Shown piece by piece: positions 51,238-54,453 of a DNA stretch of 64,000 bases (position 1 is the first letter of the stretch; each line of letters opens with the position of its first letter). This DNA is from Sphingomonas sp. HMP9 (GTDB taxonomy: Bacteria > Pseudomonadota > Alphaproteobacteria > Sphingomonadales > Sphingomonadaceae). Location: the NCBI RefSeq assembly GCF_013374115.1, contig NZ_AP022673.1, forward strand, positions 1,578,501-1,642,500, written 5' to 3'. Under the pieces are notes generated by a model. That model was not told the DNA's origin, did not search any database, and saw nothing but the letters and a program-made list of their open reading frames with translations. Both the position numbers and the translations under genes were made by a program.

Positions 51238-51593
51238 ACCGGGCCGTTCTCACACGCGTCGCGCTGGTATTGGCCGTGGTGTTCGCGGTGACGATGGCGC
51301 TGCTGCCGAAGCCGCCACACATGCCGATCGACCAGTTCGGCGACAAGTTCGGGCATATGCTCGCCTTTGCGACGATGGCGTTGCTGGCGGCGCTGTCCTA
51401 TCCGACCGCGCGACTGTCCCGGATCGGCGAGCGGCTGTCGTTCCTGGGCGCGTTGATCGAGGTGCTGCAGGCGATCCCGTCGCTGCACCGGGACTGCGAC
51501 ATTTACGACTGGATCGCCGATACGGTCGCGATCACCGTCGTGTTGCTGATCGTCTGGGCCGTCCGGCGCACGCGTGGCGCGCGGCTTAACTAA
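51234..51593 (+). CDS. VanZ-like family membrane protein
   Basis: A 119-residue protein with four hydrophobic helices (about residues 6-24, 39-57, 68-82 and 94-110). The GDKFGHMLAFATMALLAAL and IEVLQAIPSLHRDCDIYDWIADTVAI segments match the VanZ-like family, including the conserved Asp-x-x-Asp-x-x-x-Asp stretch near the C-terminus. Function of the family is poorly defined beyond weak teicoplanin resistance in enterococci. The ATGA overlap with gph indicates coupling; it ends three bases into the convergent nucleotidyltransferase stop. Confidence 0.75.
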   Translation: MNRAVLTRVALVLAVVFAVTMALLPKPPHMPIDQFGDKFGHMLAFATMALLAALSYPTARLSRIGERLSFLGALIEVLQAIPSLHRDCDIYDWIADTVAITVVLLIVWAVRRTRGARLN

Positions 51594-52567
51594 GCCTTGC
51601 GCCATTTCGTCCAGAGGTGGCGGATGAGCATGGCCGGCGGCATGCGCAGCCAGTGCGAGCGGACGTAGAAGGCTAGCCGGGTGATCGGCCGGATCGGCCT
51701 GCCCCAATCGTCGCGCGCGGTGATGCGGCGCAGATACAGGCGATCCAGGCCGTGCGCAGGACGGTCGCCGAACACCGCGGCGACCAGACGAAGCGACCGC
51801 GAAACCTCGCGCTGCAAACCGTGACGACGCGCTTCGGCATCGAGGTCTTGGGTGCCGAACTCGTTGACCAGACAGTGGATATCCCAAAGGTTGCGAAGCC
51901 CGCCGGCAAGATCGCCATCGGCGAACAGGTGCGCTGCGGCATGGATCAGCATCCCGTTGGGCGAGAGCGTCCGCAGGCCCTTCTCGAGCGCCACGCTGCC
52001 CTCGATCAACGCCGCCGCATCGGGCGTGATCCGCGCGGTCAGCGGCAGGATCGTGTGGTGGACGTCGATCATCCGGTCGCGCTCGCGGTGGATCAGCGGC
52101 GGGAGCTCGTGCATCCAGCGGCGATAATAGACGTCGTCATACGGGTCGGGCTTCACCCATTCCCAGCCCGCGGCGAGCAGCGCCGTCTCGACCGCGCCGA
52201 TCGATGCACGCGGCACCAGTATGTCGAGATCGCCGATCGCGCGGCCCTGCCCCGCCGACAGACCCGCCGCGACGAACGCGGTGCCCTTCAGCAGGATGAC
52301 CGGGCAATCGACCGCAGACAGCGCACGCCGCGCCATCTCGGCTTCCCACAGCGCGGCGCGGCGGCCGTGTTCGGCAGCGGCGCGTGCGTCGGCGAGGATC
52401 GCCGTCACTGCGCCCGGCAGCGGCAAGCCATCGAGTCGCATCGCCAGCGTGCCGATCAATTGCTCCGCCCGCGCCATCGCCAGCAGCGCGGTCCAGCCGT
52501 CCCCGTCGAGCCCGACGATGCTGGCCGGATCCGTGAGCGCGCGCGCGAGGATGCGAGCATCGTTCAC
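51590..52567 (-). CDS. PF14907-type nucleotidyltransferase of the HPr-rel-A operon
   Basis: A 325-residue protein with the nucleotidyltransferase core LLKGTAFVAAGLSAGQGRAIGDLDILVPR (Gly then Asp-x-Asp), followed by HELPPLIHRERDRMIDVHHTIL with a third acidic position, and a helical C-terminal domain with LIHAAAHLFADG. This is the family of uncharacterised nucleotidyltransferases often found near peptide-modifying genes. The GTG at 52567 overlaps the kinase stop (GTGA). It is the last gene of a four-gene operon. Its substrate could be the Tat-exported protein coded at the operon's head or another small molecule. Confidence 0.8.
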   Translation of the reverse strand: MNDARILARALTDPASIVGLDGDGWTALLAMARAEQLIGTLAMRLDGLPLPGAVTAILADARAAAEHGRRAALWEAEMARRALSAVDCPVILLKGTAFVAAGLSAGQGRAIGDLDILVPRASIGAVETALLAAGWEWVKPDPYDDVYYRRWMHELPPLIHRERDRMIDVHHTILPLTARITPDAAALIEGSVALEKGLRTLSPNGMLIHAAAHLFADGDLAGGLRNLWDIHCLVNEFGTQDLDAEARRHGLQREVSRSLRLVAAVFGDRPAHGLDRLYLRRITARDDWGRPIRPITRLAFYVRSHWLRMPPAMLIRHLWTKWRKA

Positions 52568-53424
52568 AAGGCGGCCCACAAGGCCTCGACCTGCTCGATC
52601 GCGCGCGCGCCGTCCGGATAATCGATCGCGACCGAAGGAACGTCCGCGATCAAACCCGTCAGCGCACGGAAGCCCGCCTCGCCCAGCGCGACATAATTGG
52701 TCGAGGCCTGTGTCATCCGCACGAACGCCTCGGCAGGCGGGACCGGTCGCGTCTCCGCGTCGAAGCCATAGCGTGGAAACACGAGCAGCGCCGGCACAGC
52801 CGGGGTATCCATCGCCGCAATCGCGCGCGCGTCAGGGACCATATGGCGGATGTCGCCCTTCGGCGTCGCCGGCATCAGCGGCCCCATCCGCGCATCCGGC
52901 CACGCTGCCTCGGCCGCCGCGATCGCCGCGTTCTTCAGGCTGACCAGCCGGGGAAACGCGTGGATCAGCCCGGTCAGCGGATCCAGCAACGCGAACTCGT
53001 CCCCCATGAACCGCCAGCCCTTCGCGGCAAGCAAGGTCGCCAGCGTCGACTTTCCCGCCCCCGAAATCCCGGTCATCAACAGCGCCCGTCCATCGCGCTC
53101 GACCGCGGACGCGTGGAGCAGCAGATACCGCCGCGCGCCCAATGCCATCTGGAGGTTCATCGCCATTTCGGCCGCGAGCAGCCCCTGGCGCAACGGCAAC
53201 GGTGCGGCTTCGGGGAGCATATAGTCGCCACCGATCTCCACGGACGGCCGCACGATCCTGCGCCAGGGGCGGCGCGCGAACAGCCGGACGGTAAAGTCGG
53301 GCACGCCGTCCTGCGGCTTGGGATAGTCTCGATACAGCGTCTCGAGGTCCGCGATCGGCGCGCGCCAGTCCGAGCCGATACGAAAGCCGACGGGGCCTAT
53401 CCTTACCAAAAAGGCATGTCTCAT
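52564..53424 (-). CDS. HprK-related kinase A
   Basis: A 286-residue protein. Its C-terminal two thirds resemble the HPr kinase/phosphorylase core: LLLHASAVERDG, the P-loop GISGAGKST at residues 119-127, and GDEFALLDP with the acidic pair. The N-terminal part (PVGFRIGSDWRAP, then a beta-rich stretch) differs from HprK proper. NCBI has named the group HprK-related kinase A from its neighbourhood. No HPr-type PTS protein is in the window. Related HprK-like kinases phosphorylate the C-terminal residue of some lasso peptide precursors. ATGA overlap with the PqqD-like gene. Confidence 0.85.
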   Translation of the reverse strand: MRHAFLVRIGPVGFRIGSDWRAPIADLETLYRDYPKPQDGVPDFTVRLFARRPWRRIVRPSVEIGGDYMLPEAAPLPLRQGLLAAEMAMNLQMALGARRYLLLHASAVERDGRALLMTGISGAGKSTLATLLAAKGWRFMGDEFALLDPLTGLIHAFPRLVSLKNAAIAAAEAAWPDARMGPLMPATPKGDIRHMVPDARAIAAMDTPAVPALLVFPRYGFDAETRPVPPAEAFVRMTQASTNYVALGEAGFRALTGLIADVPSVAIDYPDGARAIEQVEALWAAL

Positions 53425-53696
53425 AAGCTCTCGACGAGCCCGGCTTCGATCAATTCGTCCAGCCGGGCCGTCAGGGCCGCACGATCCGCGTCTTCGAGAT
53501 CATAGTCGTGCCCGAGACGGTCCAGTAGGGCATCGAGCGACAGTCCGTCCTCGCCCAATGCTTCCAGGATCTGCGGCGCGGGCTCGGTCAACAGGTGCGT
53601 GATGCCCGATGCACGGTGATAGACCGCGGTGAAGGCATCGAGCGGCGCGATCAGCAGGCCTCCACCGGGTGGCCCTCGGAAGATCGGATCGGGCAC
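53421..53696 (-). CDS. HPr-rel-A system PqqD family peptide chaperone
   Basis: A 91-residue PqqD-like protein. It begins with PDPIFRGPPGGGLLIAPLD and continues FTAVYHRASGITHLLTEPAP, then a helical end LDALLDRLGHDYDLEDADRAALTARLDELIEAGLVE. PqqD-type folds serve as RiPP recognition elements that bind leader peptides. The GTG start at 53696 sits 5 bases after the upstream gene's stop; its own stop overlaps the kinase start (ATGA). No ATG is available in a good position, so the start is inferred. Between Tat protein and kinase, the role would be substrate delivery. Confidence 0.78.
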   Translation of the reverse strand: MPDPIFRGPPGGGLLIAPLDAFTAVYHRASGITHLLTEPAPQILEALGEDGLSLDALLDRLGHDYDLEDADRAALTARLDELIEAGLVESL

Positions 53697-53700
53697 GGCG

Positions 53701-54132
53701 TCAGCCGCGCGGCATCTGCAACGATGCGAAGCAGGTGAAGCCGCCCCGGCCACGCTGCAACCGGCGGATGTATTTGACGTAGGCGCGGCTGCGTTCGGAA
53801 TCGGTACCGGGCAGCGTGCTGCCGCTGGCCATTGCCCGCTTGACCTCTTCGCCCTTGAACGGGCGAGTCGAGGGCGGGAATGCGCCCTTGGTGCGTGCCG
53901 GGACGACCCTGCCGTCGGCGTCGATATAGCTGCCCGCGCGGCCCGGATCGGGAACGGGGATCTCGCAGTTCAGCACCGAGCCCGCGGTCTGCGCGAGCGC
54001 CGGACGGATCGACACGACCGCCCCCGCACCGACGGCGCCGAGCACCAGGATCCGGCGGCGGGTTGGCACGCTGGGGTGCGCATCGGTGTCCGGGCTTGGC
54101 GCCTGGCTCTGATTGGGTTGCGTGTCGTCCAT
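53701..54132 (-). CDS. Tat-signal small exported protein heading the HPr-rel-A operon
   Basis: A 143-residue protein of unknown function. A twin-arginine signal (SVPTRRRILVLGAVGAGAVV at about 21-40, cut near ALAQ at 48) is followed by a mature part with Cys56 in LNCEIPVPDPG, a Pro/basic middle, and a C-terminus GFTCFASLQMPRG with Cys134. The mature part is short, basic and hardly globular. It is the first gene of the run and reads directly into the PqqD-like gene, so it is the natural candidate for a modified or chaperoned substrate. ATG 54132 follows AGGGA at 4 bases. Confidence 0.65.
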   Translation of the reverse strand: MDDTQPNQSQAPSPDTDAHPSVPTRRRILVLGAVGAGAVVSIRPALAQTAGSVLNCEIPVPDPGRAGSYIDADGRVVPARTKGAFPPSTRPFKGEEVKRAMASGSTLPGTDSERSRAYVKYIRRLQRGRGGFTCFASLQMPRG

Positions 54133-54254
54133 GGTTTCCCTGCTAGACCACAGCCCTTTCACAATCCGGAAGTCCTGACAATATCGCTGTTTCGGCTGCG
54201 TCGGGAGCGTGCCGAAGCAGGACGGCTTGACGCTCCGCTCGATGCGCTACGAGA

Positions 54255-54340
54255 CCCGTCGTCCTGACGAAGGTCGGGACCTCCTGTGACGAACGTCGAA
54301 GCGTGTGGCTCTGGATCCTGACTTTCGTCAGGATGACGGA
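54255..54340. repeat. family A palindromic element (copy A4)
   Basis: Arms CCCGTCGTCCTGACGAAGGT and ACTTTCGTCAGGATGACGGA, with a GTGGCTCTGGATCC inner part. It lies between the divergent Tat-protein and phoR genes (54133-54453), which otherwise show no gene. Confidence 0.85.
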
Positions 54341-54453
54341 GAGGATGACAGTGCCGGGGGAACGGCGTGGCGCCACTCAACGGACGATACCGGTTTGTGC
54401 CGCACCACTGTATGGCGCGGTGCTGGACGTCGATTTCGTCCCAGGAGACCGCA

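Follow-up and report, generated by a model that had tools for sequence, protein, structure and literature searches.

What would a PqqD-like protein, an HprK-related kinase and a nucleotidyltransferase do beside a gene for a small secreted protein? This question is raised by four genes, all on the minus strand from 54132 to 51590 of the 64,000-nt window (the whole stretch of DNA analysed here), which encode, from 5' to 3', a 143-aa Tat-signal protein, the PqqD-like protein, the kinase and the nucleotidyltransferase. Based on sequence comparison, we propose with a probability of about 60% that the operon serves to produce and modify a single exported protein, which would be phosphorylated at Ser137 (or Thr133), decorated by the PF14907 enzyme and exported by the Tat route.

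The tat precursor gene (53701..54132) runs from ATG 54132 to a stop at 53701, and its product, the putative substrate, contains RRRILVLGAVGAGAVVSIRPALA, the invariant C56 and C134, and the tail GFTCFASLQMPRG. The pqqD-like gene (53421..53696) most likely starts at GTG 53696, four bases past the tat stop, while a start at the alternative GTG 53753 would overlap tat. The kinase gene (52564..53424) starts at ATG 53424 and overlaps the pqqD stop as ATGA, and the nucleotidyltransferase gene (51590..52567), starting at GTG 52567 (or 52579), overlaps the hprK stop as GTGA; the first-pass annotation was therefore right in describing a four-gene operon with overlaps among its last three genes. Its family calls also held, each of these last three products scoring above a curated cut-off: 56.1 bits for the PqqD-like protein with TIGR04353 (cut-off 35) and 238.2 bits for the kinase with TIGR04352, HprK-related kinase A (cut-off 200), both NCBIfam profiles, and 169.5 bits for the nucleotidyltransferase with PF14907 (NTP_transf_5, gathering cut-off 31.2). 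In the whole genome, the operon's pqqD is the one TIGR04353 copy above cut-off and its nucleotidyltransferase the sole PF14907 match. The kinase conserves the P-loop, H104, K125, D142, E143, K164 and K189, and the nucleotidyltransferase conserves K98-G99 and D117-x-D119 (numbered from the 52579 start); these catalytic-type residues are kept in 67 and 71 diverse alignment rows, respectively. No solved relative of the nucleotidyltransferase was found by sequence up to E 1. For the kinase, the best solved match by sequence profile was the HPr(Ser) kinase/phosphatase 1ko7 (E 9e-5), although this match spans only 46 residues around the P-loop and the operon contains no HPr gene.

The first protein of the operon fell outside such assignments. 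Searches to E 0.1 in NCBIfam gave nothing for it, and those to E 0.05 in Pfam gave a single sub-threshold match, the Tat-signal model UCR_Fe-S_N at 16.6 bits (cut-off 24), so that naming it through either collection was rejected. Its Tat signal region covers residues 25-48 (53989..54060, RRRILVLGAVGAGAVVSIRPALAQ). The protein is a predicted Tat substrate, judging from a twin-arginine motif, an uncharged hydrophobic stretch and an AxA site, together with the TatC encoded in the genome (215.7 bits, cut-off 132.7). The mature protein has about 95 residues, and exactly two Cys are present in the mature part of 90/90 family members. At the other end lies the C-terminal motif GFTCFASLQM (residues 131-140, 53713..53742 as derived from the reading frame), carrying the putative phosphoacceptor Ser137 and the alternative Thr133; across the genome, the DNA pattern for GFTCFA has a single occurrence.

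Across 98 diverse sequences, 19 columns of the 143-residue protein were invariant, and the tail GFTCxAS supplied six of them (G131, F132, T133, C134, A136 and S137). Invariant residues outside the tail, including S52, C56, Y118 and G128, may matter as much. The tail was present in 80/80 near loci, which had been found by a whole-protein profile. More broadly, [ST]C[FYWLIVM]xS occurred near the C-terminus at 42/60 far loci with otherwise different precursors, compared with 7/6,617 control ORFs, and tandem precursor pairs at two loci (L184 and L202) had the motif in both copies. Outside Sphingomonadales, 12 of 28 loci had the tail motif, 15 had another kind of Tat protein and one had none. The C-terminal conservation claimed earlier thus stands, the motif being better conserved than the bulk of the protein, as the invariant columns show, and recurring among differing precursors. 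It is missing, however, at 16 of these 28 loci, which rules out a tail Ser as the universal target. The kinase itself varies with its presumed substrate, its tree tracking substrate class with 2 changes against 9-15 in 200 shuffles.

We then consider how closely the Tat protein and the kinase go together. Counts for Tat, PqqD and nucleotidyltransferase came from redone profile searches, the first iterated profiles having drawn in overlapping frames; kinase placement and orientation at the compared loci came from the iterated kinase profile of that first set. Among 196 Sphingomonadales genomes, the kinase was found in 90, and all 53 genomes with a Tat-profile match were among those 90, with 0/106 matches in the kinase-negative genomes. 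Within the window's family (113 genomes), a Tat match was seen in 32/32 cases on the kinase-positive side, one of them (G053) weak and unlinked, versus 0/81. Five genomes (G035, G080, G097, G119 and G167) retain both tat and the kinase at a split locus, in which tat adjoins a phoR-like gene (5/5) and pqqD-hprK-nucleotidyltransferase adjoins gph-, glmU- and glmS-like genes (5/5). Elsewhere in the phylum, in further orders and classes, the same position is held by different Tat proteins. The expectation of the first-pass annotation that the Tat protein accompanies the kinase was borne out, and the comparison of genomes supports its pairing with the three tailoring proteins.

The same annotation had held that no role was established for this set of genes, which needs correction. 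NCBIfam names the kinase (TIGR04352) and the TIGR04353 'PqqD family peptide chaperone' as the 'HPr-rel-A system', although its models name these two proteins only and none covers the Tat protein. Moreover, a RiPP family combining a kinase, an RRE and an NTP transferase, the linear polyphosphorylated peptides (LPPs), was published in 2026 (Popov et al. 2026, PMC13381572) and, in the accessible part of that paper, is described as restricted to Bacillota. LPPs and the phosphorylated lasso peptides are the closest published kin of the operon. We found no paper naming the Tat protein as a target in the open-access literature, which was surveyed shallowly beyond PMC9266682 and PMC13381572.

According to the accessible part of PMC13381572, LPP loci share with our operon an RRE-type protein, an HprK-like kinase, an NTP transferase, the lack of a macrolactam cyclase and, frequently, a polysaccharide-locus context; they have in addition a SipW-like leader peptidase, an MsbA-like exporter, a YxxP leader and, as target of LppK, Ser3 of a linear peptide. 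The window operon differs in its Tat signal as leader, its C-terminal motif and its four genes; no SpI-like leader peptidase or MsbA-like exporter is encoded within these four genes, and the [YW]xxP motif of lasso and LPP leaders is absent from the 143 residues of the Tat protein. For the phosphorylated lasso peptides paeninodin and pseudomycoidin, the part of PMC9266682 available to us reports an HprK-like kinase, with PadeK and ThcoK phosphorylating a Ser, and in pseudomycoidin an annotated nucleotidyltransferase, PsmN, needed for hexoses on the phospho-Ser. In contrast, our operon has no cyclase, its precursor is a secreted protein, and the Tat protein ends at Gly143, six residues after Ser137, whereas the lasso acceptor is the last residue. 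A lasso peptide locus was rejected, as no macrolactam synthetase in the genome exceeded the NF033535 cut-off and none of four sub-cut-off stretches lay in the window.

In the proposed pathway, the PqqD-like protein, probably a peptide-binding protein of the RRE type, would hold the newly made Tat protein, probably via the conserved signal region and/or the segment right after it. A docking site of the form hydrophobic-x-hydrophobic-Pro after the first mature Cys was tried and rejected: it occurred in 89/90 window-family members but in 12/19 and 0/11 of two hand-made sets of other precursors, with 11% in shuffles and the first Cys mis-set in several rows, leaving a weak lead. The HprK-related kinase would phosphorylate Ser137 of the T-C-[FY]-A-S motif, or alternatively Thr133, and the PF14907 enzyme would next act on the phosphorylated residue, adding a hexose or a nucleotide by analogy. 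We are unsure of this enzyme's role, because deletion of the NTP transferase gave no visible change in the LPP study, as far as the accessible text goes (PMC13381572). The Tat route would then export the tagged protein, in which the two Cys would probably pair and so hold the modified tail to the mature N-terminus. The earlier reading of a tail modified before Tat export is partly supported; we infer both the modification and its timing ahead of export.

Compatible with this tailoring pathway, though somewhat doubtful as a whole, is an envelope or exopolysaccharide (EPS) module that would use the tagged Tat protein as an exopolysaccharide acceptor, primer or anchor, its sugar being attached via the phosphate. 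Outside Sphingomonadales, glycosyltransferase genes and XrtA/PEP-CTERM EPS genes abound near the locus (among 140 neighbours scanned, PF13692 was matched by 10, TIGR03088 by 6 and TIGR03108 by 5), and five loci have a family-4 glycosyltransferase gene within the operon, between tat and pqqD (L105, L107, L110 and L111 by Pfam, L199 by similarity). An exosortase match at E <= 1e-20 was found in 31/61 kinase-positive versus 40/337 kinase-negative genomes (18/48 versus 32/328 without the 22 Sphingomonadales among the matches listed), and a match above the XrtA cut-off in 25/61 versus 10/337, but these genomes are not independent, the association is not a mechanism, and 30/61 kinase-positive genomes miss the exosortase match. 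LPP and paeninodin loci are often situated within capsule loci in the sources as partly available to us; in the window's genome, however, XrtA lies 373 kb from the operon, which adjoins phoR- and gph-like genes instead. Taken further, sphingomonads and further bacteria of the phylum would have an overlooked class of secreted, Tat-exported proteins. In the cytoplasm, a dedicated HPr-rel-A kinase would phosphorylate the [ST]CxxS tail, which a PF14907 enzyme would then cap with a sugar or nucleotide and a disulphide would clasp, the phosphodiester-linked tail tying the protein to envelope polysaccharide; the Tat route would be used because it carries an already modified protein. We regard this extension as rather unlikely.

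It is unlikely that the Tat protein is the partner while the kinase hits another residue or is no kinase, leaving the PF14907 enzyme to nucleotidylate the tail directly. Members of the HprK superfamily can also dephosphorylate, the PF14907 gene is found at 137/141 loci with D-x-D kept, and HPr-rel-A kinases have Asp-Glu (D142 E143) compared with the His-Lys-Asp-Asp of lasso kinases, a comparison by description from partly available sources. Against this, in each of the two characterised systems that share this gene trio, it is a Ser of the small protein that is phosphorylated, as far as the accessible parts of their reports go. Least likely is that tat is a mere neighbour under shared control, with its own periplasmic function, and the kinase-PqqD-nucleotidyltransferase set modifies something else: linkage can be inherited, as the locus is often beside phoR-like (74/112) and gph-like (87/112) genes, many loci being short, and 15 far loci bear a quite different Tat protein, but Tat presence tracks the kinase even when unlinked, the differing Tat proteins hold the same place, the kinase tree follows substrate class, and Pho regulation, considered because of the divergent phoR-like gene, was rejected when Pho-box-like sites upstream of 90 tat genes proved no better than shuffles.

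For a kinase and a 'peptide chaperone' that already form one named system, the proposed tailoring of an exported protein names a definite candidate substrate and, within it, a candidate acceptor residue. If true, the biology of phosphate-tailored peptides would reach beyond small Bacillota peptides to proteins that Gram-negative bacteria export by the Tat route, and the unsettled role of the PF14907 enzyme would become testable in a second setting.

The four genes of the operon lie on the minus strand (54132-51590, as read from the sequence) of a 4.0-Mb genome, in which the window is C1:1,578,501-1,642,500. The first gene, tat, encodes a Tat-signal protein of 143 residues, and the genes that follow on the same strand encode a PqqD-like protein (pqqD; TIGR04353, 56.1 bits), the HprK-related kinase A (hprK; TIGR04352, 238.2 bits) and a PF14907 protein (NTase; 169.5 bits). 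The start of pqqD is probably the GTG at 53696, four bases past the tat stop, and the overlaps described by the first-pass annotation among the last three genes were confirmed, an ATGA being common to pqqD and hprK and a GTGA to hprK and NTase. A divergent plus-strand gene upstream has phoR as its best NCBIfam model (295.6 bits, under the cut-off of 334.2), while a plus-strand gph-like gene (171.7 bits, under the cut-off of 225) and then glmU (694.6 bits, over its cut-off) lie downstream. The interval between tat and the phoR-like gene contains a palindrome (54240-54360, TCCTGAC...GTCAGGA) that resembles a repeated element. TatC is encoded elsewhere in the genome.

Using the kinase as query against species genomes, we obtained 104 relatives and used the best 80; among named records, the closest came from Sphingomonas. 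With a whole-protein profile that drew on 120 database homologues of the window's Tat protein, a Tat protein ending in GFTC[FY]AS was found in each of these 80 near loci. In one of them, from an assembled metagenome bin (L087:5370-5729), the precursor has an intact tail and no in-frame Tat motif, which may reflect sequencing error or decay, and a record titled Arthrobacter sp. TPD3018 (L054) holds a typical Sphingomonas locus with a 78% identical kinase, so that the title may be wrong. In wider searches, TIGR04352 was over cut-off in 88 of 196 Sphingomonadales genomes (two more, nearly full length, fell just under), in 11/385 genomes of the class and in 61/398 of the phylum. From 147 distinct kinase-positive genomes we took the flanks of 60, hand-picked for spread and size of contig, 28 outside Sphingomonadales and 32 inside. 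Upstream of the kinase, 58/60 of these far loci have an ORF that begins with a Tat-type signal; the one counted for L193 is a spurious ORF, its real tat being about 4 kb upstream, and in L180 no tat was found. In L183, tat and a pqqD-like gene stand beside a phoR-like gene on another contig (L218). Across the 60 far loci, the 80 near loci and the window, NTase was present in 137/141 (missing in L164, L178, L179 and L180) and a PqqD-like gene in 131/141, six of the other ten having, by eye, a small ORF at the expected place. Two loci, L184 and L202, encode two tandem precursors each, both with the tail motif.

The association extends to whole genomes. Profile A1, drawn from 30 Tat proteins and run against the same 196 Sphingomonadales genomes at E <= 0.001, matched 53, all among the 90 kinase-positive ones, and none of the 106 kinase-negative ones (Fisher value 8e-24, kinship ignored). 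Of these matches, 31 had E < 1e-50, one (G002) 2e-15, and the remaining 21 were weak, with E from 6e-8 to 7e-4; among the latter, a few lie on contigs other than the kinase's. Within the window's family (113 of the 196 genomes), the Tat protein was matched in 32/32 kinase-positive versus 0/81 kinase-negative genomes, and in one genus (g10) three genomes had both and three neither. Among the 37 kinase-positive genomes without an A1 match, flanks were seen for 12 (L181, L182, L185-L192, L203, L204), and in all 12 the upstream Tat protein differs in sequence but bears the tail motif. Five genomes of one genus (G035, G080, G097, G119, G167) carry tat beside a phoR-like gene, away from the kinase, and pqqD-hprK-NTase beside gph-, glmU- and glmS-like genes; the halves are at least 160 kb apart or on different contigs, and a search of the kinase halves at E 1e-5 gave no tat. 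An ancestral phoR-like/tat/pqqD-hprK-NTase/gph-glmU-glmS locus has been split between tat and pqqD, with both halves retained (L213-L217 with L219-L223).

Within the window's Tat family (54 sequences, <80% identity), the commonest residue had a mean frequency of 0.93 for residues 130-140, a figure partly built in because sequences were gathered by the GFTC[FY]AS pattern, against 0.76 for 49-70, 0.69 for 71-129 and 0.54 for 1-48. Without such gathering, the whole-protein profile search described above found the tail in 84/84 accepted loci, and it was present in 226 of the 227 best-listed database homologues (of 3,528 and 3,981 found), the remaining one reading GLTCFAS. In 98 diverse sequences (44 from pattern-gathered loci, 53 from the protein database and the window), six of 19 invariant columns fall in the tail (G131, F132, T133, C134, A136, S137), and others include R26, S52, C56 and Y118; mature parts carry exactly two Cys in 90/90. 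The expectation of a well-conserved tail was borne out within this family, where the tail is more conserved than most of the protein; outside Sphingomonadales, 16/28 loci lack the motif.

For the far loci, the motif was defined as [ST]C[FYWLIVM]xS[LIVMFYA] within 60 residues of the C-terminus of the Tat ORF. It occurred in 42/60 far loci, a count that may be slightly inflated since the motif-bearing ORF was preferred where several were Tat-like, versus 7/6,617 control ORFs (the other same-strand ORFs with 60 or more codons in all 141 loci). It was found in 30/32 Sphingomonadales loci, L183 and L193 having it elsewhere, and in 12/28 outside, with tails such as SSCWSSLAT, TSSCWASF and NGSCWTSYC. 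The Tat ORFs of the other 15 outside loci code for different proteins; by eye, several of these have an SPGxW segment as well as CxxSG following the signal. The tail of L154, NCYLS, is a near miss. A second class of Tat protein (class B, as opposed to the motif-bearing class A) precedes the kinase set outside Sphingomonadales, lacking the tail CxxS (L153, L155, L160, L162, L163, L168-L170, L172-L177). Signals in the window (53989-54060) and in the L153-L212 Tat proteins share a pattern close to RRxLLKxGAxxxPxVxTLxxxxAxA, at which the PqqD-like protein may dock.

On a tree of 61 kinases, the substrate class changes twice (three times if L154 is called class A), against 9 to 15 changes in 200 label shuffles; this was a quick tree in which 11 of the 58 inner branches had good support, and L180 had no state. 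Kinase and substrate class move together. The kinase keeps H104, G122, G124, K125, D142, E143, K164 and K189 in at least 99% of 67 diverse sequences, its best solved match by profile being HPr kinase (1ko7, E 9e-5), and the NTase keeps K98, G99, D117 and D119 in 99% of 71. Lasso peptide kinases are described with a His-Lys-Asp-Asp motif, and E143 may stand in for its last Asp.

A link to exopolysaccharide (EPS) has evidence on both sides. EPS genes abound around the loci outside Sphingomonadales (from a scan of 140 of the 154 called neighbours; the other 14 were among the longest), and exosortase matches (E <= 1e-20) are commoner with the kinase (31/61 kinase-positive versus 40/337 kinase-negative genomes); about half exceed the XrtA cut-off (25/61 versus 10/337). 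By hand comparison of tables, XrtA was above cut-off in 12/12 class-B genomes of the phylum search (L160, L162, L163, L168-L170, L172-L177) and in 0/8 class-A genomes of that search outside Sphingomonadales; Sphingomonadales class-A genomes do carry it. However, 30/61 kinase-positive genomes have no exosortase match, and a distance of 373 kb separates XrtA from the operon in the window's genome. A family-4 glycosyltransferase gene lies between tat and pqqD in L105, L107, L110 and L111 (Pfam), as does, by similarity, one in L199; another Sphingobium, L109, has no such insert. These inserts and the EPS neighbours hint at sugar.

The proposed phosphorylation of the tail finds its model in paeninodin-type lasso peptides, where an HprK-like kinase phosphorylates the precursor's C-terminal Ser (PMC9266682); Ser137 is the proposed counterpart here. 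In pseudomycoidin, hexoses on that phospho-Ser need the annotated nucleotidyltransferase PsmN, direct glycosyl transfer not being proved (PMC9266682). For linear polyphosphorylated peptides (LPP) of Bacillota, PMC13381572 reports that the residue phosphorylated by LppK is Ser3 of a linear peptide and that deletion of LppN had no visible effect. By analogy, the window kinase would most likely phosphorylate Ser137, and the PF14907 enzyme would most likely decorate the phosphate. Both LPPs and phosphorylated lasso peptides have been published, and NCBIfam already names the enzymes as the HPr-rel-A system. In searches of an open-access library we found no paper tying the gene set to a Tat-exported protein; the new points are the candidate HPr-rel-A target and the tail motif.
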